From contig WHUZ01000136.1 in assembly GCA_015179045.1 (NCBI GenBank), positions 1 to 64,000 on the forward strand: a stretch of DNA of 64,000 nt, written 5' to 3'. The notes under the pieces were generated by a model that was not told where the DNA came from, searched no databases, and saw nothing but the letters and a program-made list of their open reading frames with translations. The stretch's first letter is position 1; each line of letters starts with the position of its first letter. This DNA is from Kalaharituber pfeilii (lineage: Eukaryota > Ascomycota > Pezizomycetes > Pezizales > Pezizaceae). The position numbers and the translations under genes were made by a program. Positions 5,871-63,790 of the stretch are shown one piece after another.

Positions 5871-6375
5871 CTTTTTTTTTTTTTTTTTTTAATTTCATTA
5901 ATCGCGTGCCGCCCTGTGGGCTATGGCGATGTTTAAGTACATGGATAAGCAGAAACTAACCTTTAAAACCTTATATATCTAGTCCCCCCAGCCCATTCCA
6001 ATATCTCCACCAGATTCGTGTCTTTCTCCACCTGCCTTATACCTTCTGCCCCTTTGGTATTCTTTCGGTTCCAGGCGATGCAGTCACTCCGTATATGTTC
6101 CCAGCCTGGCCACACCATCGGCATTCCGGTGAATCCACCTTCCCTATCTTGTATCTCCATTCCTTAAGGCCTTTGTTCCCCAGAATTCCGGCCAGCGTAG
6201 CCAAGTAACGACGCTTGTCTGCTCGTTGTGTCGGTCAGTAGTTCAGCCCTGCCTGGTTTCTCTCCGCGGCTCTCCTCGCGTTGTAATCCTGTCTTATCCC
6301 CGCCTCCGTTATGATCTCATTCTCGCACTGTAGGGCTGTGCCGACCTTTGCAGCTCGGTCCGCTTCCGTGTTGCC

Positions 6376-6666
6376 TAGTGAGCGGCACGAGCCGAGCCAG
6401 CTCGAGCTCAAACGAGCCAAGATCATGCTAGTGTTTTTCTTGACAGCTCGCTAAAATGCTTAGCCAGTGCAAGGTTTCATAAACTGTAAATACCTAATAT
6501 CGTAATAATTAGAGACTTGGAGCTCATTCTGACCTACCAACAACTTCGAAATGCACAATTTACCTGATAGTAGTGAGAAAGATGAAAATTTAGCTTAGTT
6601 TAGTTTAGTTTGTCAATATTATGTATATAATCAATCCAGGCTCGAGCTAGCTCGTGCCGCTCACTA
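6376..6666. mobile_element. hAT-like MITE with 8-bp TSD and empty site in the window
   Basis: The perfect terminal motif TAGTGAGCGGCACGAGC appears inverted at the other end, and TSD GTGTTGCC lies at 6368-6375 and 6667-6674. The paralogous LINE near 61430-61450 carries the uninterrupted target, so the borders are confirmed. The terminal YAGNG pattern and 8-bp TSD fit the hAT superfamily. It has no coding capacity. Confidence 0.95.
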
Positions 6667-6955
6667 GTGTTGCCTCTGATTCCCTTGTGGCTTTTAACCC
6701 AGATGATGGCAAGGTCTAAGTCCCCTTTTGGCCGCTCGTTCTTCCCACCGTCTCCTCACCATGTTGGAAGCTCTGTCGGCTGTAGGTCCTACTCCCGCTA
6801 TCTTCTGTAACTTTGTGATCGCCGTTTGTGAGTCGGTGACAATTAGTAGCTCCCCCGTTAGCTTTAATGCTTCGCTTATTGCTATGAGTTTACCGTCGTT
6901 TACCGTACTCCTTCTCCCCAAGTAAAAGGACTTTGTCTCGTGCCGGTGGTGTACC

Positions 6956-7295
6956 TAGTGTTTGCATTGGTTACAAGTACTTGTCAGTTTAACTTGTCAG
7001 TTTTTTGGTACAAGTCGGGTTTTCTTCCAAAAAAAAACTGACTTGGCCAGCAAGTCGGTTTTTTCTATATTAAAAAACTTGGACCAACAAGTTGAAACAG
7101 ATACAAGTTGAAAATTATATGTTTCACCATACAAATAATCCCTGTCCAAGTCGGTTTTTGGCTCTATTTTCAACTTGTCGGACAAGTTTTTCCAAAAAAA
7201 AAAAAATAACTTGTTGGAACAAGTTGGTGTTAATCTAAAGTGAAAACTTGTACCAAAAAACCGACTTGTACCGACTTGGACCAATACAAATACTA
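6956..7295. mobile_element. hAT-like MITE, TAGTGTTTGCATTGG family, 8-bp TSD
   Basis: The TIRs begin TAGTGTTTGCATTGGTTACA and, at the other end, TAGTATTTGTATTGGTCCAA. The TSD GGTGTACC is at 6948-6955 and 7296-7303. The interior is built of repeated ACTTGT/ACAAGT words such as GACAAGTT and AAGTCGGTTT. A second copy with its own TSD is at 53158-53496. Confidence 0.95.
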
Positions 7296-9934
7296 GGTGT
7301 ACCTCTGCTCCTATCGTGCCCTCTATTCTACTTCTATCAGTGTACATTCCGTTCCACCCTTCATCCATTTCTTTCTCTATGATGGCCTCCCACTCGTTCC
7401 TGCTCATATCACTCAGATGCATGAAGAAGGTGTGTAATAGTAATGGGTCTCTATGTCTTAGGTTGCCTCTCAGGTATGTGGTGTCTGGTTCTGGGTTGGC
7501 AATCCTTTCTTGGGGGAATTTCAGTACCCGAGCCTCAACCCTCTCCCCTTCTCCTACTACGAACGCTTGTACTGACTCCAGGTTGACAATCCCCTTGACT
7601 ATCGCCCTCCTGTTGCCCCATGGGGCCTCCGTGATATTTCTTACTATGCTATACTGCCATTTTTCCAGCTCCCTAAGTTTCTTCTCTGCTGGTGCCCTTC
7701 TCGCGTAGTTGAGCCAGGCCCAGCTCCCGTATGTTGCGATCTTTCTGGCTATACTTGTGTATAGTTGTCTTCTTTTGCTCGGAAGTATTTTGATGAGCCT
7801 GGACGCCATGTTCCAAGCCACTTTCCCTAGCCGCATCTACTTGTCGAAGTGCTCATTGAAATTTAACTCCCAGTCCACCGTTAGGCCAACCAGTCTGTAA
7901 CTCTTTCCCTTCACTCCCACTATCAATGTCTCCGCCTTGTGTGGGTCTATCTCGAAACTCTCCTCCCTAGCTTCCTGGGTTAGTATGTATCTGTATTCCT
8001 TGATGTCTTTCCCTAGCTAGCTCAGCGATTTTCTGGCTATTATGCTGTGAACATTGTCGACATCTATCCATGTGTACTGCCATTTCTCCATTTTCTTCGT
8101 GAGTAGTACCACTCCTACCAAGAATAGGATAGGGGAAAGTGGTGATTCCTGCTGGACCTCATCCATTATCTCGCCTTGTCCTCTTTCTTTCCCATGCTAT
8201 AAGAGGGTGAATTTCGTCGGTTCTATAAAGCCTTATACGAAAGCCGCGATGTTTCAGTCCTCCTTCTCAATCCTTTGAGCTACCTTCTTACTCCGAACGT
8301 GATTAAAGGCTGCCTTTATGTCGTCTCCGACCAGTGCGGTTCACTTTTCTTTCCCCAGTTATGTGTCTAACTTCTTTAGGACTTGTCTCTGTAAGTCCTC
8401 GCATCCCCTGTGGTGGCTGCCTCCCAGTTGGGTGTCACTAAATAGTACATCCATCCGCTGTATTCCGTTTGCTATCACTTTTTGCCCCAATTTGGCTACT
8501 GTATTCAATAGCTTTATAGGATGCCAGCTTCCGGGTAGGTCATACGGTCTGTCTCTTTTCAGTATTATTATCATGTTGAAGCTCCTTATGAATTCGTAGT
8601 CTCCATTTATATATTCGACTACTTCTTCTCTCAGTAGCTCCCATAGTTTTGTTTTCCGGATAATTTTTAGGATGCCATATTGGATTCCACCTGGGCCCGG
8701 TGCGGATCTTGTCTTAGTGTTCAATAGCACTCTCTCTATCTCTCTCTTGGCTTTCTCTCGTTTCACGGTGAGTCCCTGTGGTCTCCTTCGTTCCGTGTTG
8801 TCTCCCCAGGCCTCGGTGATGAAGTTGTGGGATATAAGCTCTTGTGTTATCTGTTGGTCGGTACCCCTTATCCCCATCATTTCCCGGCTTTGGAACGGAT
8901 TCTGAGCTATCCTGAAGATGTCCCATAGAGATTCGATCCAGTCCTACTCAAGGAAGTTCTCCCAATAGGTCTTTTTCTTTTCTCTTATGAGATCCCTATA
9001 CAACCTCCGGACCTTGGTCCTTTATTCTTTCGGAGAGTTTTGTAGTATGTATTTTGTCATCTTCTGGGCTTTCTTAAGATCCTTGTCAAACCATCTCTTG
9101 GATCTGTCCATGATGTGAATCTGCTTGGTGTATTCCTGCGCAAGTCTCTTCATCATTTCATATCTACTCTCTCCAGGGTTCGATTGGAGCTCCTTATTCT
9201 CTTTGGTGTATTCCTCCCACTTCTCCTAGTCAGTTACCCTTAGCATTATTCCGAGGTTCGTTCTTGTAGGTGTCCTTTCGGTTTTCATGTGGTGGTCTGT
9301 ACCCGCTATCTTTTCTGTTTTCCAGTCCCTCTCTCATGCAAATACTAGGTCTAGTAGCGCTGTTCGTATTTCCCCTTCGATGTTTCTTGTCCAGGTTACC
9401 GTTCCTTTGCTCATCTATTGTCTCATCCTATGCATATCCACATGAGCCTTCAGCATTTCCCATTCTACTTGTTAGACTAGTTCATATAGTAACTATTGCA
9501 GTCCCCAATTAGGACATTCGTTGGTCCGATCTGTTCCAGAATTGACTTGACTTCTATGTGTTTGTTTTAGTATACTCCAGTGCTGTCTCTTGCTCTAATG
9601 CTGCTTGTCACAAACCTCTCCCCCCCCTCACCTTGACCTTGAGTAACAGGTCTTTCCTCACGTATGCTGCAATATCCCCTATCTTCCTTGGAGTAATAAC
9701 TGTTATGTACACCGGATGAAACATTGTTCCCCTATGGGAGCTACCCAACTCTCCTCTATAAAAATGATTCCTGCCTTCTTTTCTGCTCCTTCTTGCAGTA
9801 TTATATCGGTCGCAATCATCCCCCTACCCACATTCTAATATATTGTTCTGATCATTGTTGGGGTGCAACCTTCTTTGTTGCCCTCTGGGGTCGTATAATT
9901 GGTCTAGAGCATCCCCTCATGTATTCGCCTCTTC

Positions 9935-10400
9935 TTTCGCATCTGTGGCATGTCTGCGCGAATCCTCCATTTAAGTAACCTCCTTCCTCTGCTTCCTTAC
10001 TTCTCGGAGACCGTTGTAATCCTTCTGTTAGATTTTTTTGTCAGGGGACCCATTCGATGACCTGCCCTATAGTGAAGTAGTGGCAGTATCCGTTGAAGTC
10101 TGTGTATCTGTATCTTCTTGCTTTGTCTGATTTCTCCTTCCCCAGGCCTGCCTTCAAATAGCATTTGATAGTGTCTCCTCTGAACTTCAGGCCTTTCCTG
10201 AGGATCATGATAATGTTATCTGATATATACATCATCACTGCCGGTTTACCATTCCTTGCCAGAATCTCCTTCGTAGTCGCTCGTCTTGTGTTCCTGTAGG
10301 TGATTTCTATCAGGTTGTCAATCCTAAGATCCCAGTCCACTTTTCCTATCTGTTCTTGATGTCCTATGTCAAACGTCACCATTTCTATGAGCCTGCTATC
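9935..10400 (-). pseudogene. LINE ORF1 (gag-like) relic with zinc knuckle
   Basis: A 113-codon frame (10041-10382) is followed, in another frame near 9935-9960, by CHRCERRGEYMRGC. That matches a C-x2-C-x4-H-x4-C gag knuckle with Tyr in place of His. It suggests that complete family A ORF1 proteins end in knuckles which the half-LINE ORF1 proteins (59688, 55002) lack. Nucleic-acid binding is the usual role of such proteins. Confidence 0.55.
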
Positions 10401-10690
10401 CTAGTCTACCCTCACTTCAGGATATATTCGTTTGACCGCCCTAGTGAGGTGTCCGATATGTCTCGGTACTGTTCCTTCTTCTGTGTTGGCCATTAAGAGT
10501 ATTCTTCTAGAAATTTTATATCCAGAATTACTCTTCGGATCTGGTAAGATGTTTTAACCCCTAGTAAGGTATCTATTCTTTTCTGCATGATCTCTATATC
10601 CTTGTTTCCCTATCGAGGTTCAGACCACTTTCTCCTCCATCTGTTGTCATTGTGTATTCTTGCTTGCAACAGCTTCTCCTTGGGTATGAC

Positions 10691-19856: not shown

Positions 19857-20128
19857 CTAGGGAAAAGTGACTAGCTCAGCCGTGGTATACTTGGAGGAAG
19901 AAAGTGAAATACAGAAAGTGCTATTGGGAGGGAAATGGTTGAGGGTATCTAAGTACGAGTCATATAGGAGCAGGAGAGAGGACTCGTCTTGTTTTGGCCT
20001 GTCACCCGCATCATCATCACATACCGCGGGCTCTACTGTAACTTCCTTTTTATTTTCCTTCTTCATCTACTTAAATCGCCATAGCCTAAAAGGCGGCATG
20101 CGATAAGTGATATATATAAAAAAAAAAT
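19857..20128 (+). mobile_element. half-LINE (family A) 3' fragment
   Basis: The ORF1 C-terminal domain (TSSAVVYLEEESE, GGKWLRVSKYE) passes straight into the family A 3' UTR and poly(A) with no ORF2 sequence between. This is the junction seen in the full-length half-LINEs at 54730 and 59527. Confidence 0.8.
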
Positions 20129-20264: not shown

Positions 20265-20322
20265 TGCCCTGCCATGGCGAACAGCTACAAGCGGGGTCAC
20301 GTGAAAAAAAAAAAAAAAAAAA
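20265..20322 (+). mobile_element. family B mini-insertion
   Basis: CCCTGCCATGGCGAACAGCT and GGGGTCACGTGA plus an A-run, flanked by AGTGTAGGTGT on both sides. Only about 40 bp of LINE sequence was copied. Confidence 0.9.
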
Positions 20323-25540: not shown

Positions 25541-25727
25541 CGTCGAGACTACTTTGCAGGGAAGGGACCTCCGATAACGTCGTAGTCGCTGTTGGCTGCA
25601 TGGAGCGAACCTCGGAGCTTAGTGTGATCTGCACCTGAAAGATATCTACGATTGTCGATAAAAGCGCCGAGAGCGAATAATCAAGAATTTTGGGAAAGAC
25701 AAGCAAGGTTAACGTTATAGGGATATA

Positions 25728-27472
25728 GAGTGCTTCACCTAGAAACCGATCATCACCGGGAAACCGATCAAGTCCATTAACTTACATACAGAGCTGCTGT
25801 GAATGCAAATGACACTCAAGTGGCCTCAAATTAAAGCCAGAGCATGGGAGATCATAGTAAATTATTTTCTGCACTTTCTTTTCCCAGCTTGTCGCATCTG
25901 AGGGGTGATATATACTGGAATATATGCAACCCTATTCTAGCGTATACTTTTGAGTCACCATATGTGAATGAGATTACCTGAGGCCTTTGCATCTCAATAT
26001 ATCCTCTATTGCTTATGCTAAGTAAGTATACCAAGTTTTGTGATCATTGGACTTATCAGTACAGAGTTACTGCCACGTCAAAAAATACATTTTCGCTTAC
26101 TTAGATTGCTAGCCGTATTGAGGTATTATTTGATGAGAAAGATGCACAGAGACTCTGTAAAGCTATATAATTGTAATACACGCATAGGGAAATGTTTTCT
26201 GAATAGATTGCAGCATTGACAAATAGTCGGGGTAGTTGAGCACTACAAGATATACATATATGTAAAATCCTAACCTCCTCACATAGTACGTAGCAGTGTA
26301 TGCCCAATATGAGTCGCTAGAGGTTTAGAAACATGCCTTAGCACTGTCATGCTATTCCTTGTAAGCTTATATAGGATATACATGACTCCATTAGATCCTA
26401 TAGGACTACTATAACCGCACCAGTGAGTAAGTATCGAATGTGTATTATAAGCAGTGAATAATATACATATTATACTTATAGAACTAATACCTATGAGATA
26501 CATGGCAGTAGAAATAAGTTTAGTAGTCAAGTCTCATATTGTCCTTAATGTAATATAGTTCCGTATAGTATAGACCCTTATTAGTATAGAAATGAATACT
26601 TCAACAGTATAAGTAATAAAGATAGTACACACAGAGAATTAACCTCTACCAAGTGAAAAAGAAACTTGACTAGCAATTCTAACTAGTTCTTCTTAGCAGT
26701 TCATATCACCTTTATGATAGCAACACATTTTACTGCTGTCACATAGCGCATGCATGGTATATACATATGCATATATATTCGATATGTAGTGCTCATTCTG
26801 AGTCAGCCCTTTAGTACCCCATCGAGTAGTAGCAGTGCCGGTGATAGTACATGAAGATAGCAGACTATGTTTCCGAACCTCTAGTGACCCATATTGGCAT
26901 ACACTACTACGTACTATGTGAGGAGGTTAGGATTTTACATATATGTATATCTTGTAGTGCTCAACTACCCCGACTATTTGTCAATGCTGCAATCTATTCA
27001 GAAAACATTTCCCTATGCGTGTATTACAATTATATAGCTTTACAGAGTCTCTGTGCATCTTTCTCATCAAATAATACCTCAATACGGCTAGCAATCTAAG
27101 TAAGCGAAAATGTATTTTTTGACGTGGCAGTAACTCTGTACTGATAAGTCCAATGATCACAAAACTTGGTATACTTACTTAGCATAAGCAATAGAGGATA
27201 TATTGAGATGCAAAGGCCTCAGGTAGTCTCATTCACATATGGTGACTCAAAAGTATACGCTAGAATAGGGTTGCATATATTCCAGTATATATCACCCCTC
27301 AGATGCGACAAGCTGGGAAAAGAAAGTGCAGAAAATAATTTACTATGTTCTCCCATGCTCCGGCTTTAATTTGAGGCCACTTGAGTGTCATTTGCATTCA
27401 CAGCAGCTCTGTATGTAAGTTAATGGACTTGATCGGTTTCCCGGTGATGATCGGTTTCTAGGTGAAGCACTC
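25728..27472. mobile_element. foldback transposon, about 610-bp inverted arms, TA target
   Basis: GAGTGCTTCACCTAGAAAC at 25728 returns inverted at 27472, with TA on both outer sides (25726-25727 and 27473-27474). The arms extend inward to about 26340 and 26870 and differ at only a few positions; the ~520-bp spacer is AT-rich and noncoding. A diverged single arm lies at 38430-39460. The TA target recalls Tc1/mariner elements, but no transposase is visible. The 60-67 codon frames in the arms look fortuitous: they are not kept in the diverged copy. Confidence 0.9.
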
Positions 27473-27475
27473 TAA

Positions 27476-34957: not shown

Positions 34958-35332
34958 TTAGGGAAGGTCCGGAAATGGTTGGAGTCCGGGAATGATAGGC
35001 TAGGCAAGACCGTGGGGATAAGGTGGCTGAGACGAAAGACCGCGCTACTGGAAGAAGGAAAAATGACCAGCTCGGTCGTGGTGTACTTGGAGGCAGCGAC
35101 GGGCGTAGACAGAGTTAGGTTAGGTGGGAAATGGTTGAGGACCACTCAATACGAGCCGGACAGACGGAGGAAATAGGCTGTATTGACCAGTGTGTACATT
35201 CTACCCGCACCATGTATGAGCATTGCGGGCACCACATGTATTTAGTGACGGTTAATTTTCTTTCTTTAATAAATACCTCGCCATAGCCCATACTGCGGCA
35301 TGCGAGTAATGATATATAAAAAAAAAATAGTA
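34958..35332 (+). mobile_element. half-LINE (family A) 3' fragment nested in copy B
   Basis: ORF1 C-terminal codons (VRKWLESGNDRLGKTVGI, TSSVVVYLEAATG, GGKWLRTTQYE), stop, about 110 bp of 3' UTR, family A module, A-run. There is no ORF2 sequence. The matching position in copy A (about 15390) is uninterrupted. Confidence 0.85.
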
Positions 35333-41360: not shown

Positions 41361-41411
41361 TTCACTGCATCCGCCTCCCTTAGCCTCCGCCGCCTCTCTG
41401 CAATCAGCTCT

Positions 41412-42780
41412 TTTTTTTTTTTTTTTTTTTTATTTTCACATAACCCCGCTTGCAGCTGTTCGCCATGGCAGGGTCCCTGGACCGAGGTCCTTATGGCCCG
41501 GAGACAGGCACCTAAAAACAAACAACAACTCACTATATACACCGACATTCAAAAGGGAATAGAGGAAATAAACCCCATGAGACAACCCGCTATGCCGTCA
41601 AGTCCATTTCCTCCACCTCCCTCCCCTTCCCCTTTCTGTCCACCTTTGAATTTCTATCCCAGTCATACAGGCACGAATCGTACCACTTGCCTGACAACCT
41701 CACCTTCGCTGGTGTTTGGCTATCCGATTCCACCTCCCCTCCAGGTAGATGACAACCGAGCTAGCCTTCTTTCCATCCCTCCTCTCTTTCTTCACCAACC
41801 ATCTTGCCGCAACAATCTTTCCCATCCATGGGTTCGCATTCTCCATCCAATCTCTTACTTTCCCGAGTTTCTTTGTCACCGCAATTCCATGTACTACGAT
41901 CGCACGACCGGATTGCGGGAGTGTCCTTTCCTTTGGGATTGGCTTCGGAGATGGTGCTGGAGATGGTTTCTTGGACATTTTCTGCTTGGGGGGACTGGTA
42001 CTCTGTCCCCTTTCACTTTTTTGGACTGGAAAGCAGTGGACTTTGTTCGGCTTTTGGGTGATGCCACCGGAGGTCGGTCAGAATTGTCCCCTTCCGGGGG
42101 TGTGCTTGGCGGGATGTTCTGGGAGACAACTGCTGCATATGACAGCTTTGGTGGTTTCTCCGGGTCAGTTTGTGATTCCCCTTCCTTTGAGGGTTTCCTC
42201 AGGTGCATATTGTGTATTTCTGTGCATGACTCCGTCTTCACCGCTAGTGCAAGAGCAGCAATGACGCGATGCACACTCCTGATTTCACACAGGAACCTGT
42301 CTGTTGGTTCAAAGTTTGGTCTTGTCTTCTGGTCTTTTATGCAAGCATATATGTGTTCGATGACATCCCCACGGCATCAAGCATATCGGACATATTGACT
42401 CCGCCGAGCCGATCTGCGATAGACTTGTGCAGTGGGGCCTCGAGACGGGTGCTCTTGGCCAGAGTTGTTTTGGCACCTACGGGCATGTTTTTTGGTGCTG
42501 GGCTGCCCAATGCCATGAATCTATTGGTCGGATCCATGGTGGGAATGCCAAGAAGTCAGGGATGGTGGTGTGCTGGCAACGGAGTAAGGAGCTGAAAATT
42601 TCCTCAAAACTTAACCCCCAAGGGGGAAACTTGAGGAGTTGTGTTTTTGGAATAAAAATTAGATCTAAAGACTCAGCGCACTGAGAGCTTTCGATCTATG
42701 TAGGTTTCGCTGGGGGGACGCTGTGGTTGCGGAGTGGCTTCCGAGCGCTCGTCCTGTCGAAGTGGTTGTCGCTGAAGTCG
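41412..42780 (-). mobile_element. full-length family B half-LINE (1369 bp), 13-bp TSD
   Basis: TSD TGCAATCAGCTCT lies at 41399-41411 and 42781-42793. From the 5' side (42780, minus strand): leader with hairpin GATCGAAAGCTCTCAG.../GCTGAGTCTTTAGATC (about 42665-42700), a second hairpin around TTTCCCCCTTGGGGG (about 42620), ORF1, a long 3' UTR and the family B tail (41412-41475). No endonuclease, reverse transcriptase or RNase H is present. It needs a partner LINE for movement. Confidence 0.9.
41700..42540 (-). pseudogene. family B ORF1 (RRM-like C-terminal domain), frameshifted
   Basis: The frame starts near 42537 (MDPTNRFMALGSPAPKN), continues in another frame (KPPKLSYAAVVSQNIPPS, 41894-42274) and ends in a third at 41700 (AIVVHGIAVTKKLGKVRDWM, KASSVVIYLEG). 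The C-terminal VVHGIAV...ARWL...SSVVIYLE pattern matches family A ORF1, suggesting an RRM-like RNA-binding fold. PKLSYAAVV is typical of LINE ORF1 N-terminal halves. No gag knuckles follow. Confidence 0.75.
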
Positions 42781-43358
42781 TGCAATCAGCTCTATCACCC
42801 GCGCTAGGTCTGCGGTCCTTGCCTTGCCAGTTTTCCCTGCTTTCTGGACTGCACTGATAGCTGCCTGAGAGTCTGCCAGTAGTAGCACTTTTGCACTGCC
42901 ATCAACAGCTTCAAGGTCACCCTTCATTCCTGAGGCCTCGCCGTCCACACAGTTGCTTTTGTGCCTACCCACCGGGACCCTTCTGACTCACCTGCCACCA
43001 CCTGCCTCCAGCACGATCCGCCACCAACACCGCCTTCCTCACTGCGGCTGCCATCTGTGAAAATAGCCACCGAGTCACCCTTAGCCTCATTGATGGCCTT
43101 TTCCCATTTGGCTGGGGCGTCTTCCTTGCACAGCTTGAGGTCAATCCGTCAATGACCTCAATGTCTGCCTGCAGTAGGTGTACATCTCATCCCCAGAACA
43201 CTCTCTCCTCCTCATCGACCTCGAGAGTGCTGGCAATCTTTCCGGCTACCGACTCAAACCCATCATTTTTGTCTGTAGCAGGTATTCGGTATTCGAACTC
43301 ATTTTGCACTAGTGATAAATCGCTCAGGAGAATTCGCTCACTTCATTGGGATGTTTGA

Positions 43359-49576: not shown

Positions 49577-49776
49577 TGTTGAGGACCACTCAATACGAGC
49601 CGGACAGGCGGAGGAAGTAGGCCGTATTGACCCCCGCATCACACACGAGATCCGCGGGCCCCACATGTATTTAGGCATCAGTTAGTTTTTGTTTTTTCTT
49701 CTCAAATATACACCTCGCCATAGCCCACAGGGCGGCATGCGAGTACTGAAATAAAAAAAAAAAAAAAAAAAAAAAA
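49577..49776 (+). mobile_element. half-LINE (family A) 3' fragment, TSD TTGGTCTCGCT
   Basis: The last ORF1 codons (RTTQYEPDRRRK, stop), the 3' UTR of the half-LINE type, module and A-run; the 11-bp TSD is perfect. Confidence 0.88.
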
Positions 49777-53504: not shown

Positions 53505-53850
53505 TTAGTCTCTTGTTTCATCCTATCTTCTTTTAAACTAGTTTTAAGATTTTCTAACTAATTATAGGATTTACTAAGTTTGAAGTTACTTAAATTAGTT
53601 TGAGGTTATATAATTAAGTTATTCTAATTATTTTATAAAACTATTTCTACTAACTCTTGTAAGCAATAGCTGATTGCTAAACTTATACAAATAATTTAAT
53701 AAGCTTAATAGATTCTTTAATGCATGGTCTAATAGATAGCCAGACATAGGTGTCACAGCCCACGCCCTACAGTCTCCGCACATCAAGCCACGACCGCCGG
53801 CAAGCTGTGACCGCCTCCTGCCAACAGCCGGCAAGCTCATAGAACCGGCT
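53505..53850. other. no supported gene
   Basis: AT-rich sequence followed, from about 53740, by a sharp change to GC-rich sequence. Confidence 0.4.
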
Positions 53851-53852
53851 AG

Positions 53853-54190
53853 CAACCTGCCAGTATAGCCCGCCTGCCAGTACAGCCCGCCTGCCAGTAT
53901 AGCCCACCTGCCAGTATAGTCCACCTGCTAGTATAGCCCGCCTGCTAGTACAGCCCGCCTGCTAGTATAGCCCGCCTGCCAATACAGCCCGCCTGCCAGT
54001 ATAGCCCGTCTGCCAGTACAGCCCGCCTACTAGTATAGTCCGCCTGCTAGTATAGCCTGCCTGCCAGTATGACCAGTCTGCTAGTATAGCCCGCCTGCCA
54101 GTACAGCTCGCCTACTAGTATAGCCCGCCTGCCAGTACAGCCCACCTGCTAGTATCGCCGCCTGCCAGTATCGCCCGCCTGCCATGAAAA
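53853..54190. repeat. 17-bp minisatellite CCCGCCTGCCAGTATAG
   Basis: About twenty units with variants CAGTACAG and TAGTATAG. The 98-codon antisense frame across it (53628-53924) is a by-product of the repeat. Confidence 0.95.
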
Positions 54191-54194
54191 CTCT

Positions 54195-54729
54195 GCCTTC
54201 ACCACTCTGTTCTTACTTCTGCCCTCGTCGCTGCTTCTACCTTTGTATTATGCTTCTCAGGTAATGAACCTATCATGTATATATAGGCTCTATCTTGCCC
54301 TCATGTAAATAGTTCCTTCTCTCCTTGTCTGTTGTCTTGTCTTCTTAATAGACCCATATGGTTCCTCGCAGTCTATATGTTCTTGTTATTCTTGTCAATC
54401 CCTAGATCCAATTCAGTACTTGGTCTTCTCTGCCTTTTCACCATAGCCTGCCATCGCCGTTGAACTGGAACCTCTGAACTGCTCCTGTCAAGCCTCTCCT
54501 GTCAAGTTTGTCAGGCCTCTGCCATTCAGCGCTTGCAAAACTACTGTTACCCTGAACCGGTCGTATCCCTTAGCAGCACCAGCTTGCCGCCGCGTGACAA
54601 TAGGGTCCAATAAGTATACAATTAGCAGCCTAATGTATGACTGAATTCAATTACAGCTACTCCACTCTACTGGTGCTCCATGCCAAACAGCTGCCCTTCC
54701 AGTCCACCATACATACACCTCCGTGGCCA
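54195..54729. other. no supported gene; left flank of a minisatellite
   Basis: Pyrimidine-rich sequence. The last 90 bp match the start of the 33-bp array at 58560-58640 (GCTCCACGCC, AACAGCTGCCCTTCC). Confidence 0.5.
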
Positions 54730-56123
54730 GCTGACCTCACACGGACAACAACCACCTCAGGACGAGCGTTTGGAAACGACTCCACAACCACAACGTCCCC
54801 CCCAGCGAAAATCACATAGATCGAAAGCTCTCAGCGAGCTGAGTCTTTTGATCTAATTTTCATTTCCAAATACCATAACCCACAAGTTTCCCCCCGGGGC
54901 GAAACTTTGAGGAAATTTTCAGCTCACCATCGTGTTGCCACCACACAAACCCCACGCCAAGACCCCATAGGAGACCGCGAAACACCGCCCTCCCACCAAT
55001 CAAATGCCGAAGGGAAAGAAAAAACAAACCACCACCTCCACCCGCCGAGAGGACTGCCTCCTCTCCGCCGATGAGGATCGCATCCCCCCCTCCGCCACCG
55101 CCACACGCCGAAAGGACTGCCTCCCTCCCGCGCAATATATGGGGAAGACTGCAAGATGCGGGCATCGGATGGTACGAAGTAGTCGAAGCGATATGGAAGG
55201 ATAAATCCGGAGACAATGAACCCCCGAAAAACGGCGCAAAATTAATTATACCGTTCTTAGACGACAGCGTGCCCACGGAACATATCCTGGCACTGCGACC
55301 GGACCAACTCCCTCCAGGCCTCCAGCCCATCGCACCGCCACAGACCCTGGGGCTCAGCCCCATCACCACGATCGAAATAACACCAGCACCTCCGCTACCT
55401 CAACCACTAAGGCTCAGCCCAATGACGGCAGTCGACACCACGCCACTGTCGCCACCCCCACCACCAACTATGAGGCTCAGCCATATCACGTGTCTAGACA
55501 CGGAGCCGGAGGAAACAATACAGACAGCCCCGGCACAAACACAGAAGAAGAGGAAGAGAAAAGACGGGAAAAAAGTTTCCTCTTCCCCGGCGGCACTCCC
55601 AGCTGCCCCCACCACATCGACCCCCGACCCACAGACGAACCCCGGGCTCCGCCCCCGCACCCGACCCCAGACATCACCTCCGCGCCCCAGGACCAGATCT
55701 CCGACCAGCAACTACGGCATTGTCGTTCACGGCATTGCATTGAGAAAAGACCTAGACAAGGTTAGGAGATGGCTGGAGACAGCAAACAAGGAAATAGGCC
55801 AAACGAGAGGAATCAGGTGGTTAAGAAAAAAGGCAATGCTAGCGGAGAAAGGCAAAAAGACGAGCTCCGTGGTACTATACCTGGAGACACAGATAGACGT
55901 CGAGAAAGTTAAACTCGGGGGAAGATGGTTGCGAGCGGAGGTCTACGAGCCGAGCAGAGGAAGGAAATAGGAAGGCTTGGTAGACCCCTCCTACACCCGC
56001 ATCACGGAGGACTAGCGGGCAATACCTGTACTTAAAGTTCATCTTCTTTTTTCTTTTAGATATAACACGTTCTCTACAATATATAAACCTCGCCATAGCC
56101 CATTGGGCGGCATGCGAGTAATG

Positions 56124-56156
<33 letters not shown>
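54730..56156 (+). mobile_element. full-length family A half-LINE (1427 bp), 15-bp TSD
   Basis: TSD ACACCTCCGTGGCCA lies at 54715-54729 and 56157-56171. The 5' leader (54730-55001) contains CAACCACCTCAGGACGAGCG, a hairpin GATCGAAAGCTCTCAGC/GCTGAGTCTTTTGATC (54818-54853) and a second hairpin AAGTTTCCCC/GGGGCGAAACTT (about 54881-54907). ORF1, a 120-bp 3' UTR, the family A module and an A-run follow. ORF2 is absent. It is inserted in the 33-bp minisatellite. Confidence 0.95.
55002..55970 (+). pseudogene. half-LINE ORF1, one frameshift
   Basis: It starts MPKGKKKQTTTSTRRED and changes frame near 55070, then is open to 55970. The middle has repeated LSPIT-x-I-E-x-T/P motifs separated by prolines; the C-terminal domain reads GIVVHGIALRKDL, RGIRWLRKK, TSSVVLYLETQ, GGRWLRAEVYE and stops at RGRK. 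RNA binding is the usual role of LINE ORF1 proteins; this domain order suggests an RRM-like fold. CCHC knuckles are absent. Confidence 0.85.
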
Positions 56157-56158
<2 letters not shown>

Positions 56159-56660
56159 ACCTCCGTGGCCATGCCGGCGAGCAGCGTATACACTTCTGTA
56201 GCCATTCCAGGCCATAGCATATACACCTCCGTGACCATTCCGGCCCGCAGCATACATACCTCCATCACTCTTCTGCCCCGCATCATAGTCACCTCCATAG
56301 CCATTCTAGCCTGCAGCATATACACCTCCATAGCCACTTCGGCCACTGCATGTATACCTCCGTGGCCATTACTACTTCCCACTCATAATATATGCACCTT
56401 CGTAGCCATTCCAGCCTGCAGCATATACACCTCTGTGGCCATTCGGGCTCGCAATATACACACCGTCATAGTGACTTCGGCCCGTCGTATATACACCTCC
56501 GTAGCCACTTCGGCGTGCCGTATGTACACCTCCATAGCTATTACTAATTCCCCCTCGAAGTATATACACCTCTGTAGCCATTTCGCCCCATAGTATATAC
56601 ACCTCAGTAGCCATTTCGGCCCGCCGTATAAACTCCTCCGTAGCCATAACATCCAGTACC
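56157..56660. repeat. 33-bp minisatellite (CCTCCGTAGCCATTCCGGCC)
   Basis: About fifteen units of 33 bp, ending GCAGCATATACA. Because 33 is a multiple of three, both strands stay open: VAIPARSIYTS repeats on plus, MATEVYILRAG repeats on minus. The half-LINE at 54730 is inserted at its left edge. I do not call the frames genes. Confidence 0.93.
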
Positions 56661-56689
56661 TTCCAACACCTACTAGAGCCTAGCCCCTC

Positions 56690-56837
56690 ACTCCTATAAC
56701 ACGCAATGGCTGTACATCTTCGCAGTGCAATGGCAGTGCATCTCGGAATGTAATAGCAGTATATATTCGCAGTGTACCTTGGCAGCAACACAATGGCAGC
56801 AGCGCAATCGCAGTGCACTTTCACAGCATACTAGCAG
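56690..56837. repeat. GCAATGGCAGTGCA-type degenerate repeats
   Basis: Short units around GCAATGGCAG and TTCGCAGTG, also seen at 57584-57660 and 59050-59210. They follow each block of the 33-bp array, so the two form one composite repeat. Confidence 0.7.
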
Positions 56838-57578
56838 TGTTACGGCTAAGGTGGAAACTTGCCTACCACTGTGGCAAGGGGCAAGGGTTCCACTACTATT
56901 AGCTGTCATGGCTAAAGGTGAAGACTTACCCGCCAAGGGGAAAATGCTGACCCTGTAATCGAACATAAGACCAATGCTGATTGACCGGACTGATCACCCA
57001 TTAGGCTTGGCTGTTGATTCTCGCATCGTTTAGATAGGGCAGTACTACGGAAGGGTGTGTTATCCGGAATGCAGCTTGATGCATACACTTGAGTTACGGA
57101 AGCTTTATTCATATACACACATGCATTAGTACATTCGTTATCTTTGTCCCGTACTATTTTTGCATGTTTTCGTTACGTATGCCTATTACTACGGTATTGG
57201 CATTGATAAGGAATCGCCGTGGGGCCAGCCAATTATTCATTTGTTGACTACTCATGTATGGCTGCGCTGAAGTCTATATAAGCACCGGCTGGCGATAGCA
57301 TAGTTAGAAGAATCAAGACACTAGCGGTGTTCTCTAATTTCTCTATAACTCTGAACCTATCGTTCCCTCAATACGCCCATGAATCGCTCCGCTCCGCTGC
57401 GCGCTCCCCGCCGAGTAGCTGCCCTTCCGGTCCGCCGTATATACGCCCCGTAGCCATTCTGAACCGCCGTATACACACTTCCGTGGCGACCCCGACCCGC
57501 CATATTCACCCCACCGTAGCCGTAATATCCGGTGCCGTCCAGCGCCCACCGGAGCCAGAGCCCCTCACGCCCGTAACA
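56838..57578 (+). mobile_element. solo LTR (741 bp), TSD AGCAG
   Basis: Termini TGTTACGG and CCGTAACA; TSD AGCAG at 56833-56837 and 57579-57583. A TATA-like CTATATAAG lies near 57270. It includes a few units of the 33-bp repeat (about 57420-57545) near its right end. Confidence 0.95.
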
Positions 57579-57658
57579 AGCAGTATATATTTGTAGCGCA
57601 CCTTGCTAGGAGCATAATGGCAGTAGCGCAATGGCACCACAGTTTCCCAGTGCAATGG

Positions 57659-58491
57659 TGTGATGAATGGGTCCAGGTCAAGGTACAAGATCTGGGTACG
57701 GGGTGGCCGCCGGGCACTGAGGCGATGTCACAGTGGAGGCGGAGGCAGAGCCGGTCGGAGCTATATGATATCGAGAGGTAGATGTATTAAAAGCTAAATA
57801 CACAACTTGGGCAGGATACAAGTTGTTGCGTGGAGAAGCAAGAGGGAGGAGGGAGGAGGGCCTCTTTATAGAAAACTCTCAGTGGAAAATCCAGGTAAAC
57901 AAGCAAACAAGCAAACAAGCAAACAATCAAATAAACGAAGTACATGAACAACCGAGAAGCAACTAGAAGCACATGGAAAACAAAGGAAACGACAGGAAGT
58001 ACATGGATGGCCAGGGAAATGATTGAAAGCAGGTAGAAGCGTCAAGAATATCCAGGAATAAGCTCGGCGATACCTGTTTCCACCAGATTCTACGGCTTTT
58101 CGGCAGGTTCTCCACGGCTTTCCGGCGGGTTCTGCGGCTTTCCGGCTAGTTCTGGGGATCCGGGTTCTTCTAGCAGCTTCTGGCAGGTTCTTCGGCTTGG
58201 GGGGCTGTTAACTGATGACCGGGATGCTGGTGGCCATGTCGCTTAAGCGTGCTCACAGATGCAGGGATATATTTTTTTTTTTTTTTTTTTTTATCACATG
58301 ACCCGCTTGTAGCTGTTCGCCATGGCAGGGCATGCAGGGATATATATCGGAGTGCTAGCAGGGGTGCGGCGAATTGCAAGGGTGTCAGGGTCAGCTGCAC
58401 GTGTACGAGTACTGGCGAGTCGTATGTTGGTTGCCAGTATACGACCGGAGCTGGACGGTCTTGGGCGAGGGGTCCGGGTTGGACTGTTACA
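57659..58491 (-). mobile_element. solo LTR, inverted relative of 3181-5573
   Basis: TGTGATGAATGG...ACTGTTACA; it matches the LTR at 3181 along its length but lacks the 1.6-kb transposon, giving that transposon's empty site near 58383-58400. No clear TSD (AATGG against GTAAT). A family B tail is nested at 58273-58331. Confidence 0.85.
58273..58331 (-). mobile_element. family B mini-insertion (59 bp), 14-bp TSD
   Basis: T-run plus ACATGACCCGCTTGTAGCTG; TSD ATGCAGGGATATAT at 58259-58272 and 58332-58345. The related LTR at 3181 has the target once, near 4945. Confidence 0.93.
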
Positions 58492-58639
58492 GTAATGCCA
58501 CGTGTGGTTTAATGAATGGCCGAATACAGGTCCCAGAATGTAGCCTGATGTGCGGCCCAATGCATAACTGAAATCAACAACAACTGCTCCGCTCTGCTGG
58601 CGCTCCACGCCTAACAGCTGCCCTTCCGGTCTACCATAT

Positions 58640-59060
58640 ATACACCTTCATAGCCATTCCGCCCTATAGCATATATACGTCCGTGGCCATTCCGGCCTGC
58701 AGATACACCTCCTAGCCATTCCAGCCTACAGCATATCCACCTCCATAGCCATTCCGGCCCACAGCATCTACACGTCCGTGGCCATTCCGGCCTGTAGCAT
58801 GTATACCTGCATGGCTATTCCGGCCCGCAGCATAAACACCTCCGTCGCCATTCCACCCCGCAGCATATACACCTGTGTGGCCATTCTGGCCCGCAGTATA
58901 TACACCTCCGTAGCCATTCTGCCCCGCCGTATATACACCTCCGTAGCCACTTCGGCCCGCTGCATATACACCTCCGTGGCCATTACGAATTCCAGCTCGC
59001 AGTATATGCAACTCCGTAGCCATTTCTGCCCGCCGTATACATACTTCATGGCAGCGTGCA
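58640..59060. repeat. 33-bp minisatellite, second block
   Basis: About twelve units of the repeat seen at 56157. The GCAATGGCAG-type repeat follows at 59050-59210. Both strands are open because the unit is 33 bp. Confidence 0.93.
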
Positions 59061-59214
59061 ATGGCAGCCCGCAATGCCAGCGCACGTTCGCAATGCAATG
59101 GCAGCATACATTCGCAGCGCACCTTTGCACCGCACCTTTGCAGCGCACGTGTGCAGCAGCACAATGGCAGCACATCTTCGCAGTGCAATGGCCGCATATA
59201 TTCATCTCAAACAG

Positions 59215-59516
59215 CACGAGATGAGGTGAATTTGACACGTATAGCTAAGCTGACCTTGACAGGGATAGCAGGTACTGCCAACCGGTATGCGATGAGGTCA
59301 ATTTGACAGCCATGAGAGGTCCACCCTGCCAGCGTGAGATGTAGTGAATCTGACACATGGCCCCCTAATGTGACGTTGCGAGATCAGACACCAGGCGCTA
59401 AATTTGACAGGTATAGCAGGTACGGCCCGATGGCATCAGATCTGGTGAACTTGACAGCTATGGCCTTCCCATGAGACGAGGTAGAATTACCTGAATTTGC
59501 CACGTATGACAGCCCC
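59215..59516. repeat. degenerate array, GAGGTGAATTTGACA type
   Basis: Units of about 55-60 bp share AATTTGACAGCTATGGC-like and GAGATGAGGT-like words. In inverse orientation they resemble the array at 690-1890 (GCCATACCTGTTAAATT), so they are related. The half-LINE at 59527 is inserted in it. Confidence 0.75.
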
Positions 59517-59526
59517 GACCCGGCGG

Positions 59527-60950
59527 TTTTTTTTTTTTTTTTTTTTTTTTTTATTTCATTACTCGCATGCCGCCCTATGGGCTATGGCGAGGTTTTATTT
59601 CAGAAAAGAAAGTAACTAACTAAACTTAACTACATGGGGCCCGCGGGTCTATATGTGTGTTGCGGGGAAAACGGCCAGCAATCTGTCTCATCTCCTTCCT
59701 CTCTCCGCCTCGTACTGGCTCGCCTTGAGCCATCTCCCTCCAAGTCGCACCCTGTCAATGTCTTGAGGGTCCTCCAAGTAGACCACGACGGAGCTGGTCT
59801 TCTTGCCCTCTCCGATGAGTATGTCTTTTTTCCGAAGCCATCTAATCCCTACTACCTTCTTCAGGTCCTTGTTGTCCTCTTTCAACCATCGTCGTACGTT
59901 GCCCAAATCCTTCCGAAGGGCTACTCCGTGTATGACGATACCGGTTTTGGTGGGGGTGGGGCGGTGCCTTCTCGGTCTCGATCTGGCTGGGGCGGGGGCG
60001 GGGGCGGGTGCCGTGGTGGGAGTTATGGCTGGTGTGGGGCCCGGTGTCGCAGTCGCGGAGGGGGCTGGGTGGGTTGCCGAGGCAATCTTCCTTGCCTCCT
60101 CGTCGCTCAACTGGCGCTTTAAGGCATACGCGTCTTGGGGGGACGGCGTCTTGCCCTTGCGCTTTCTGCTTGGGGTGGGTGCGACGGTCGGGGGTGTTGC
60201 TGCTGGAGGGGAGGTCGATCTCTTCGGTGGTGGCGGTGGGACTGTCGGGGGCGTCTCTATGCACGTGATGGGGCTGAGCCCCATTGGCTGTGGTGGTGCT
60301 GGTGGCGCTTCCACCGGCTCCGTCTGAATGCACGTGGTGGGGCTGAGCCCCAGTGACTGTGGTGGTGGTGGTGGTGGTGCCAGCCATTGAGGGAGCGGTT
60401 GGCCTGGTTCTCTTCCCACGACCAGCAACGAGGTCCCCTCGGCAAACTGTATGAGTAGGCGTGATCCTAACTTCGGGTTGTCGTCGCTTCGGGTTCTGAG
60501 TTTCCACAATGAGACTAGTATCGCGCCCCACTGGATACCGTGGTCTCTCAGTGTCTCCGTTAGGGTATTCCATTCTGGTATGTCTTCTGCGTCCCAGCCT
60601 TGGGGAGGGTCCTCCGCCGCTGGGGGAGGGGGCGGCGGGGAAGAAATGGTCGACTGTTTCTTCTTTCCCTTCGGCATTTGATTGGCGGTGGACGGTGTTT
60701 CGCGGCCTCCTATTGGGTCTTGGCGCGGGGTTGATGTGTTGGCAACGGCGGTGTTGAGCTGAAAACTCCTCGAAGCTTCACCCTGGGGGGAAACTTGTAG
60801 GTTGTGGTTTGGAGGAATAAAAATTAGATCAAAAGACTCAGCGCGCTGAGAGCTTTCGATCTATGTAGATTTCGCTGGGGGGCACGTTGTGGTTGTGGAG
60901 TCGCTTCCAAACGCTCGTCCTGAGGTGGTTGTTGTCCTGACAGGCACCTG
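59527..60950 (-). mobile_element. full-length family A half-LINE (1424 bp), 10-bp TSD
   Basis: TSD GACCCGGCGG lies at 59517-59526 and 60951-60960. The order on the minus strand is leader with the same two hairpins (about 60825-60862 and 60775-60800), intact ORF1 (60677-59688), 3' UTR and family A tail. Its length is within 3 bp of the copy at 54730, and no ORF2 is present. Confidence 0.95.
59688..60677 (-). CDS. half-LINE ORF1 protein, intact, 329 aa
   Basis: LINE ORF1 proteins coat the element RNA and assist reverse transcription. The start MPKGKKKQSTISS is preceded by the conserved leader. Residues about 95-160 hold LGLSPTTCIQTEPVE, MGLSPITCIETPP and PPPPPKRSTSPP, a repeated LSPxTCIxT/proline motif. 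A basic stretch (SRKRKGKTPS) and an Ala/Pro-rich linker follow. The C-terminal ~85 residues (GIVIHGVALRKDLGNVRRWL, VGIRWLRKKD, TSSVVVYLED, GGRWLKASQYE) look RRM-like. It stops at ERGRR, without the CCHC knuckles expected of a complete ORF1. The frame is undamaged, so this copy is recent. Confidence 0.85.
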   Translation of the reverse strand: MPKGKKKQSTISSPPPPPPAAEDPPQGWDAEDIPEWNTLTETLRDHGIQWGAILVSLWKLRTRSDDNPKLGSRLLIQFAEGTSLLVVGREPGQPLPQWLAPPPPPPQSLGLSPTTCIQTEPVEAPPAPPQPMGLSPITCIETPPTVPPPPPKRSTSPPAATPPTVAPTPSRKRKGKTPSPQDAYALKRQLSDEEARKIASATHPAPSATATPGPTPAITPTTAPAPAPAPARSRPRRHRPTPTKTGIVIHGVALRKDLGNVRRWLKEDNKDLKKVVGIRWLRKKDILIGEGKKTSSVVVYLEDPQDIDRVRLGGRWLKASQYEAERGRR

Positions 60951-61012
60951 GACCCGGCGGTAGGACATGAGGTAGAATGAGATAAATTTAACAGGCATGG
61001 CTGGCCCTAGCC

Positions 61013-61244
61013 ATTTCAGTAGCCATTTCGGTAGCCATTTGGGTTGCCATTTCAGTGGCCTTTTCAGCTGCAATTTCGGCTGCCATTTCAGCATGCATTT
61101 CGGCTGCCATTTCAGCTGCCATTTCAGCTGCCTCTTCAGCATGCATTTCAGCACCCATTTCGGCTGCGATATCGGTAGCCACTTCGGCTGCCATTTCAGC
61201 ATGCATTTCAGTAGCTATTTCGGCTGCCATTTCAGCTGCTAATT
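61013..61244. repeat. 12-bp minisatellite GCCATTTCAGCT
   Basis: About nineteen 12-bp units with variants GCATTTCAGCAT and GCCATTTCGGCT. Both strands are open (AISA repeats on plus, MAAE repeats on minus) because the unit is a multiple of three. Confidence 0.95.
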
Positions 61245-61970
61245 AAAGCTAACGGGGGAGCTACTAATCGTCACCGACTCACAAACGGCGATCACAAAGT
61301 TACAGAAGATAGCGGGAGGAGGACCTACAGCCGACGGAGCTTCCAACACGGTGAGGAGACGGTGGGAAGAACGAGCGGCCAGAGGGGACTTAGACCTTGC
61401 CATCATCTGGGTTAAAAGCCACAAGGGAATCAGAGGCAACACGGAAGCGGACCGAGCCGCAAAGGTCGGCACAGCCCTACAGTGCGAGAATGAGATCATA
61501 ACGGAGGCGGGGATAAGACAGAATTACAAGCCGAGGAGAGCCGCGGAGAGAAACCAGGCAGAGCTGAACTACCGACCGACACAACGAGCAGACGAGCGTC
61601 GTTACCTGGCTACTCTGGCCGGAATTCTGGGGAACAAAGGCCTTAAGGAATGGAGATACAAGATAGGGAAGGCGGATTCAAGGGAATGCCGATGGTGTGG
61701 CCAGGCGCCAGAGAGCTGGGAACACATACGGAGTGACTGCATCGCCTGGAACCGAAAGAACACGAAAGGAGTAGAAGGTATCAGACAGGTGGAAAAAGAC
61801 ACGAATCTGGTGGAGTTATTGGAGTGGGCCGGGGAGGACTAGATATTTAAGGATTTAGTTTCTGTTCTAAGTTTTCTTTTCCTTTTCTCATCTATGTACT
61901 TAAACATCGCCATAGCCCACAGGGCGGCACGCGATTAATGAAATAAAAAGAAAAAAAAAAAAAAAAAAAT
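61240..61970 (+). mobile_element. family A LINE 3' part, young copy
   Basis: 5'-truncated in RNase H; ends with the family A module (CGCCATAGCCCACAGGGCGG) and A-run at about 61970. It is closely similar to the minus-strand LINE at 5873 and gives the empty site for the MITE at 6376. No TSD was found. Confidence 0.92.
61249..61842 (+). CDS. LINE ORF2 C-terminus: RNase H end and zinc knuckle (5' partial)
   Basis: Open for 198 codons. RNase H motifs are LLIVTDSQTAI (catalytic Asp) and IIWVKSHKGIRGNTEADRAA (His and final Asp). Then comes a basic region and the knuckle ECRWCGQAPESWEHIRSDC (C-x2-C...H-x4-C), ending LLEWAGED. The 5' four-fifths of ORF2 is missing, so it cannot act alone, but the frame is undamaged. 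Confidence 0.9.
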   Translation, partial: LTGELLIVTDSQTAITKLQKIAGGGPTADGASNTVRRRWEERAARGDLDLAIIWVKSHKGIRGNTEADRAAKVGTALQCENEIITEAGIRQNYKPRRAAERNQAELNYRPTQRADERRYLATLAGILGNKGLKEWRYKIGKADSRECRWCGQAPESWEHIRSDCIAWNRKNTKGVEGIRQVEKDTNLVELLEWAGED

Positions 61971-63065: not shown

Positions 63066-63790
63066 TTTGGCATGTGCAAAATGATTTATTTTATACATGT
63101 GTGAGGAGCCCATTTAACGTGTGCAAAATGACCTATTTTCTACATACGCGACGAGGACATTTTCGACGTATTTACTATGCGCAAGATGGTCTCTTTTCCA
63201 CACGCGCGGCGAGGGCATTTCCAACGTATTTACTATGTGCAAAACGGTCTGTTTTCCACATGTGCGGCGAGAGCATTTCCAACAGTCTGTTTTCCACATG
63301 CACAGCGAGGGCATTTCCAACGTATTTACTATGTACAAAACGGACTATTTTCCACAAGCGCGGCGAGGGCATTTCCAACTATGTGCAAAACGGTCTGTTT
63401 TCCACATGCACGGTGAGGGCATTTCCAACGTATTTACTATGTGCAAAACGGTCTACTTTCCACATGCACGGCGAGGGCATTTCCGACGTATTTACTATGT
63501 GCAAAACGGTCTACTTTCCACAAGCGCGGCGAAGGCATTTCTAATGTATTTACTATATGCAAAATGGTCTGTCTTCCACATACGTGGCGAGGGCATTTCA
63601 GACGTACTTACTATGTGCAAAACGGTCTACTTTCCACATGCACGGTGAGGGCATTTCCAACGTATTTACTATGCACAAAATGGTTTATTTTCCAAAATGG
63701 TCTATGATGAGGGCATTTGTGACGTATTTACCAACTCTATATTCAACATGCGCGACGAGGGCATTTGCGACGTATTTGCCACGCATGCTA
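63066..63790. repeat. 57-bp minisatellite (GTATTTACTATGTGCAAAAC)
   Basis: About twelve units share GTATTTACTATGTGCAAAAC, GGTCTACTTTCCACA and GGCGAGGGCATTTCC. The unit is 19 codons long, so frames up to 175 codons (repeating FTMCKTVYFPHARRGHF) stay open. I treat these as repeat by-products, though translation cannot be excluded. Confidence 0.93.

Follow-up and report, generated by a model that had tools for sequence, protein, structure and literature searches.

The window considered here (the whole stretch of 64,000 nucleotides of Kalaharituber pfeilii DNA) contains three elements, E1, E2 and E3, each with a leader, a single ORF1 and a 3' hairpin followed by poly(A). It is likely that these elements belong to one lineage of non-autonomous, gag-only non-LTR retroelements, which use the enzymes of LINE helpers in trans. 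Two of them (E1 and E2) had been described in a sequence-only reading of this DNA as fungal half-LINEs, a name that is retained here for the ORF1-only elements, whereas E3 and its different helper tail were absent from that reading.

Three ORF1-only elements and their copies

The anatomy of E1 (54730-56156, + strand) is as had been claimed, viz. a leader, one ORF, a short 3' UTR, a hairpin and poly(A) between flanking direct repeats, and the element at 59527-60950 on the - strand (E2) is likewise ORF1-only, with an 11-bp target-site duplication (TSD; ACCGCCGGGTC) and poly(A) and without ORF2 (Table 1). However, the end proposed for E2 at 60950 takes in 13 extra nt beyond the conserved 5' start at about 60937; in E1 there are 10 nt between the TSD and the conserved start at 54740, and due to these 10-13 extra nt the conserved E1/E2 unit is about 1.41 kb long. 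The TSD of E1 is present as a 15-bp direct repeat on both sides, but as it is located inside a 33-bp minisatellite, it provides on its own weaker support than the earlier reading had assumed. An E1-free paralogous stretch at about 58552-58800 continues, when compared by eye, without the insert, and its upstream sequence is 81% alike. Minisatellite arrays are seen around the elements at 53806-54227, 56124-59048, 60974-61280 and 63112-63715 (units of 17, 33, 12 and 58 bp), and elsewhere in the window the stretch 25726-27474, with 579-nt inverted arms that are 99% complementary and 591 nt apart, looks like a different element.

Table 1. Positions in the window of the half-LINE elements and related features
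Feature	Position	Strand	Remarks
E1 5' TSD, ACACCTCCGTGGCCA	54715..54729	+	in 33-bp minisatellite
E1 conserved 5' leader	54740..55003	+	begins CACGGACAACAACCACCTCAGGACGAGCG; holds CTCAGCGAGCTGAG hairpin
E1 ORF1 as open here	55071..55970	+	299 aa and stop
E1 ORF1 C-terminal RRM-like domain	55701..55967	+	structure modelled for E2 homologue
E1 3' hairpin, tail A (CTCGCCATAGCCCATTGGGCGGCATGCGAG)	56089..56118	+	common to LINE A
E1 poly(A)	56124..56156	+	
E1 3' TSD	56157..56171	+	first base ambiguous with poly(A)
E1-type copies	window, C168:33387, C157:364196, C157:188646, C308:232168		
E2 TSD, copy at 3' side	59517..59527	.	last base ambiguous with poly(A)
E2 element	59527..60937	-	poly(A), tail A hairpin, ORF1, leader; conserved 5' start ~60937
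E2 3' hairpin, tail A	59562..59591	-	
E2 ORF1	59688..60677	-	329 aa, intact from conserved MPKGKKK start to stop
E2 RRM-like domain	residues ~244-325 of ORF1		
E2 TSD, copy at 5' side	60951..60961	.	
E3	41411..42774	-	leader, RRM-like ORF1 (frame-broken here), tail B
E3 TSD, AGAGCTGATTGCA	42781-42793 and 41399-41411		first base ambiguous with poly(A); found by reading
E3 3' hairpin, tail B (CCCTGCC...AAGCGGGG)	41444..41473	-	common to LINE B
5'-truncated half-LINE	19861..20108	+	ORF1 end, 3' UTR, tail A; imperfect TSD by eye
5'-truncated half-LINE	34958..35310	+	ORF1 domain, 3' UTR, tail A; no clear TSD
5'-truncated half-LINE	49577..49776	+	last ORF1 codons, 3' UTR, tail A; TSD TTGGTCTCGCT by script
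Decayed LINE A copy	5872..10687	-	ORF1 remnant 10687-9861, ORF2 remnants 10009-5984, tail A

The leader of E1 is 83-92% alike in the half-LINE subfamilies compared (L009-L013, L015, L020-L028), which have the same layout. The conserved ATG of E1 (55004, MPKGKK start) is shifted by one base relative to the frame of the ORF beginning at 55071 and its N-terminus is therefore frame-broken; a break relative to the conserved start is found (partly by reading) in all five E1-type full-length copies, and an uninterrupted ORF from this start is kept in E2, L009 and L012. The leader of E3 is about 81% like that of E1 over approximately 205 nt, and its ORF1 domain is clearly homologous to the half-LINE domain (69.3 bits, a score reached by 0 of the 294 shuffles scored). 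The 3' end of E3 is unlike that of E1 and E2.

In the Kalaharituber pfeilii assembly (78.03 Mb, 360 contigs), scoring of 40 of the 1395 candidates for E1 yielded at least 5 near-full-length copies, itself included, which differ by 0.8-1.3% substitutions between pairs and have different flanks and TSDs. For E3, at least 27 full-length copies, itself included (i.e. running from query position <=10 to >=1365), were present among the 40 scored of 1708 candidates, and these are 93-100% identical. A TSD of 9-15 bp was found for 18 of the 21 half-LINE copies (17 by script and that of E3 by reading), the chance control of the script giving 0 to 0.05, although this control is not clean, as random positions may land on a true site. 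The three copies for which no TSD was found are L025-L027, and as their flanks are common to all three, they look like one insertion that was duplicated together with its surroundings. Flanks are also common to L021 and L022, and there are therefore fewer independent insertions than copies; further, the TSDs of E1, L013 and L023 fall in tandem repeats. An 18-nt leader pattern (<=2 mismatches) and a 16-nt tail A pattern (<=1 mismatch) have 248 and 5361 matches genome-wide, respectively, with 0 in the reversed control for each, and both signals are far above chance.

The 5'-truncated copies reported earlier at 19857, 34958 and 49577 are real, and all of them end in the same hairpin and poly(A). 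The common ORF1/3' UTR junction that had been attributed to them holds good for the layout, whose spacing is conserved; the 3' UTR sequence has diverged between subfamilies. In 34 of the 37 tail A sites, 107-147 nt separate the ORF1 domain from the 3' half of the hairpin, the distances in the rest being 189, 189 and 256 nt. One E1-type copy on C2 is split, with query 213-1415 in minus orientation beside 11-203 in plus orientation, which suggests that its 5' part was inverted by twin priming.

No ORF2 match was detected inside E1, E2 or E3 by tblastn with two ORF2 queries, one from LINE A and one from LINE B (described below). The loci examined and the window together contain 47 ORF1-domain sites (three duplicates of the window being left out), 43 of which are followed by at least 1 kb of sequence, and in 0 of these 43 does an ORF2 match on the same strand occur within 3 kb before a poly(A). 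In several cases an ORF2 piece does follow, but only after the poly(A), as part of an adjacent element. A poly(A) is present no more than 420 nt downstream in 41 of 46 sites, and by tail the 46 divide into 37 with tail A, 1 with tail B and 8 with neither pattern, in a set of loci that were mostly picked by similarity to E1 or E2 and are not an unbiased sample. Based on the number of E1 and E3 copies and on the lack of an ORF2 match before a poly(A) at these 43 sites, the claim that the ORF1-only form is a mobile lineage, and not a one-off deletion, is upheld.

The ORF1 protein

ORF1 is proline-rich and has a conserved C-terminal domain of about 85 residues. Pfam searches with the E1 and E2 ORF1s gave nothing at E <= 0.1. 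In an AlphaFold2 model of E2 ORF1 (25 sequences), the mean pLDDT is 66, with values of 84-95 per block over residues 241-320, and the top two Foldseek matches of the model in the PDB are both RRMs (probability 0.99 and 1.00; E = 0.031 and 0.039), with none at E <= 0.001; the lower ranks include many more RRMs and also unrelated folds. Based on this model and its weak PDB match, the C-terminal domain can be described as RRM-like. Word-based protein searches (26, 1 and 22 matches, all from K. pfeilii; the first search covering 7996 candidates and the second giving only its own query) found no ORF1 relative outside this species, and no single-copy host gene for ORF1 was found among the protein matches, which look like element copies.

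The dN/dS of the domain was estimated from 25 full-length, stop-free copies out of 49 matches, with 144 of the 300 pairs being saturated. In the closest bins the medians are 0.30 (dS < 0.05, 20 pairs) and then 0.12 (4 pairs), and in the bins with dS > 0.15 they are 0.17 (4 pairs), 0.20 (11), 0.14 (27) and 0.11 (69); between the E1 and E2 domains, pN is 0.27 and pS is 0.90. As judged from these ratios, the ORF1 domain is under purifying selection, and because dN/dS is low across subfamilies, the source elements kept it.

Putative helper LINEs, shared hairpins and hairpin-only insertions

Two autonomous LINEs of this genome share their 3' ends with the half-LINEs. LINE A (L047-L050) has ORF2 frames of up to 1151 aa with endonuclease (EN), reverse transcriptase (RT) and RNase H and ends in tail A; its ORF1 differs from that of the half-LINEs, and its similarity to E1 and E2 is limited to the last ~65-90 nt, i.e. 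the hairpin and poly(A). In L047, the additional matches to E1/E2 come from a piece of a half-LINE that lies upstream of LINE A and ends in a tail and poly(A) of its own. LINE B is an insertion within a half-LINE in L014 (TSD TTCCCAAAGCCA) and ends in tail B, to which the 3' end of E3 corresponds; it encodes an ORF1 of 991 aa with zinc knuckles and an ORF2 of 1220 aa with EN, RT and RNase H.

The hairpin of tail A has two helices, and 97.3% of its cells are paired in 71 sequences, a value reached by 0 of 500 shuffles. Two of its pairs change on both sides, from C-G to A-U in 18 and from C-G to U-A in 12, and both the number of cells changed on both sides (30 versus 7.9 in shuffles) and the covariation score (0.155 versus 0.066) were reached by 0 of 500 shuffles. 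The number of pairs with a change on both sides (2 versus 1.9; 464 of 500 shuffles reaching it) and the number of further pair types (6 versus 6.6; 485 of 500) are not above the shuffles. If the partners are slid by 1-3 columns, then pairing falls to 15-47%. Tail A is thus a conserved, covarying stem-loop, for which three of five measures exceed the shuffles, in statistics that ignore the relatedness of the 71 sequences. The predicted fold of tail B is similar.

E2 itself is a mosaic, whose nearest relatives differ along its length (leader, 97% to C20; 580-915, 95% to C340; 914-1417, 91% to C348). This suggests that these elements have recombined or switched templates with one another and, if this is the case, such events would offer a route for the exchange of tails.

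The loci and the window together contain 20 distinct tail B copies; 14 of them are without the usual upstream sequence, and in 10 of these 14 a TSD of 10-17 bp is found within 4 nt of the hairpin start. These hairpin-only insertions consist of about 38 nt plus poly(A) and begin at the base of the hairpin. Of 18 tail B copies followed by poly(A), 10 are flanked by a TSD of 11 bp or more, and 7 of the 10 begin no more than 4 nt from the hairpin core; the corresponding numbers for tail A copies are 38 of 87 and 6 of the 38. Hairpin-only tail B sites are located in the window at 20267 (+), 43362 (+), 39295 (-) and 23559 (-), and also in L047, L006, L010, L013, L017 and L019; that in L006 (C2:663455-665298) lies between the two parts of the inverted E1-type copy and no TSD was found for it. 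Hairpin-only sites of tail A are seen in L017, L024, L028 and L035 and in the window at about 51538 and about 2095 (-). As hairpin-only insertions with abutting TSDs occur for both tails, nothing upstream seems to be needed. These insertion structures suggest that the hairpin with poly(A) constitutes the mobilisation signal, and the tail is probably enough for mobilisation. Genome-wide, a 30-nt tail B core has 4203 matches, and 1622 matches with GGGA in front (both <=2 mismatches), which would allow for a hairpin-only tail B class of up to about 2,600, an upper-end estimate, because the longer pattern spreads its mismatches over more letters and the TSDs are verified only in the loci. The hairpin-only insertions are possibly among the smallest retroposons.

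Proposed mechanism, possible origin and relation to known systems

If these elements are mobilised in trans, then each would be transcribed as an RNA of about 1.4 kb comprising the leader, ORF1, short 3' UTR, hairpin and poly(A), and the ORF1 protein made from it would presumably coat this RNA. The RT and endonuclease would be provided by autonomous LINEs sharing the 3' hairpin, viz. LINE A for E1 and E2 (tail A) and LINE B for E3 (tail B), and insertion would take place by target-primed reverse transcription, leaving TSDs of about 9-15 bp and 5' ends that may be truncated or, occasionally, inverted. The two tail types would then mark a past switch of helper. We give roughly even chances to the complete scenario, in which a long-lived gag-only lineage switched its helper by exchange of the hairpin, and bare hairpins (about 30-40 nt, followed by poly(A)) are mobile by themselves.

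A true HAL1-type origin, i.e. that an autonomous LINE lost its ORF2 but kept its leader, ORF1 and 3' end, and that this parent is still in the genome, is somewhat doubtful, but it deserves serious consideration. In addition to the 3' tail, LINE B shares with E3 a 5' end of about 32 nt, where the resemblance is good (score 34; reached by 0 of 1000 shuffles), the shuffles reaching the score being 0 for L020 and 1 for E1; however, the leaders of L009 (8), E2 (13) and particularly L025 (324), where the resemblance is poor, fit this 5' end less well. The distance from a LINE B-type leader to RT is 4.73-4.85 kb in 19 of 22 pairs (from 40 leader matches) and 6.8 and 7.8 kb in two, and at C59:71268(+) such a leader is found just 2.65 kb before an RT match. 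This gap leaves room for an ORF1 of half-LINE size and, going by this spacing, the locus is possibly a short-ORF1 LINE and a candidate parent. The residue pattern of the RRM-like region of LINE B ORF1 is also alike by eye, and hhalign of the half-LINE ORF1 with two LINE ORF1s together gave P = 0.005 (26 columns), and with LINE B alone 0.29; a single-sequence structure model of this region (mean pLDDT 42) was set aside. On the other hand, no LINE examined has the half-LINE ORF1. The ORF1s of LINE A and LINE B had no tblastn match to it, and the hmmsearch scores of the LINE ORF1s lie within the shuffled range, toward its upper end, being reached by 18 of 300 shuffles for LINE B, 11 for an L033 relative, 44 for L048 and 13 for L049. 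The sequence-only reading had likened these elements to HAL1, and this comparison is justified with regard to an ORF1-only mobile lineage, but its extension to descent from a LINE by loss of ORF2 is somewhat doubtful, as LINEs A and B share little with them beyond the terminal hairpin. Because ORF1 is not detectably derived from that of either LINE, a HAL1-like deletion derivative is unproven, and the observations agree better with a gag-only lineage that uses the tails of two helpers.

It is unlikely that the lineage began as a retrogene, viz. as the mRNA of a host RRM-like protein that acquired the 3' tail of a LINE through a template switch and turned into a coding, SINE-like retroposon. 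This would agree with an ORF1 that has no detectable relative outside the species in the searches made, and no clear match in the LINE ORF1s tried. However, the host gene expected did not turn up as a single-copy gene, the 5' end of E3 is common to LINE B, and the RRM-like fold is in any case common in LINE ORF1 proteins. Lastly, the frame breaks in E1 and other copies, and the richness of this region in nested repeats, could be taken to indicate independent internal deletions of LINEs or assembly artefacts rather than a lineage, but this is highly improbable, as the same leader, layout and 3' end recur in many copies with different flanks and TSDs, and purifying selection extends across subfamilies.

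The gag-only lineage with LINE helpers, which we favour, resembles several known systems in part. HAL1 elements also show poly(A) and TSDs and, similar to them, the elements described here are ORF1-only non-LTR elements that were amplified without a reverse transcriptase of their own, with ORF1 present, ORF2 absent, and TSDs, poly(A) and 5' truncation all observed. However, HAL1 descends from L1 and keeps the L1 ORF1, whereas here ORF1 is untraceable to either partner LINE examined; further, the partner LINEs have RNase H, and the link with them is a structured 3' hairpin of two alternative kinds. Their combination of EN, RT and RNase H corresponds to an I/Tad1-type layout, unlike that of L1. 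According to PMC5753468, the HAL1 (half-L1) of mammals is a non-autonomous L1 derivative that encodes ORF1p alone and arose several times. The HeT-A element of Drosophila telomeres is comparable in being a Gag-only non-LTR element that needs reverse transcriptase in trans. HeT-A inserts at chromosome ends in head-to-tail arrays, whereas here scattered single insertions with TSDs are seen.

SINEs encode no protein and their head is derived from tRNA, 7SL or 5S RNA, whereas the elements here have a leader and a conserved protein-coding ORF. The likeness to SINE/LINE pairs is that the RNA of the parasite ends like the LINE by which it is copied, often in a stem-loop, and in this genome tail A is shared with LINE A and tail B with LINE B. 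These elements should not be interpreted as SINEs, as their coding ORF has a domain under purifying selection and E1 and E2 have no Rfam match up to E = 5; an Rfam search of 54700-61000 for a ribozyme or Pol III-type leader gave one chance-level match, outside the elements. Tail-sharing pairs in fungi include Mg-SINE/MgL and SINE2-1_BG/Tad1-24_BG, as described in PMC3747384. The members of the ORF1-derived EKA gene family of a powdery mildew are described in PMC4641428 as co-opted truncated copies of two LINEs without the C-terminal half of ORF1; the likeness is that in this fungus, too, sequences derived from ORF1 but lacking ORF2 are very numerous, and the difference is that here the C-terminal RRM-like half is conserved and the unit itself is mobile. 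No fungal ORF1-only or non-autonomous LINE was recognised among the matches listed in the open-licence literature. A survey of mycorrhizal genomes that mentions Kalaharituber counts I elements (non-LTR) with the families that are abundant in Ascomycota, and its parts covering Kalaharituber and Ascomycota make no mention of ORF1-only elements (PMC7550596).

Why a retroelement keeps a gag-like ORF1 yet loses its polymerase is, in our judgement, an open question for HAL1 and HeT-A. As the ORF1 domain is under purifying selection across subfamilies, it is suggested that ORF1 serves the RNA that encodes it. The hairpin-only insertions resemble a naturally occurring deletion series, from which the lower size limit of the RNA copied by LINE enzymes could be read and, with two tails on related elements and two LINE partners in one genome, the choice of helper and the switching between helpers are directly testable.
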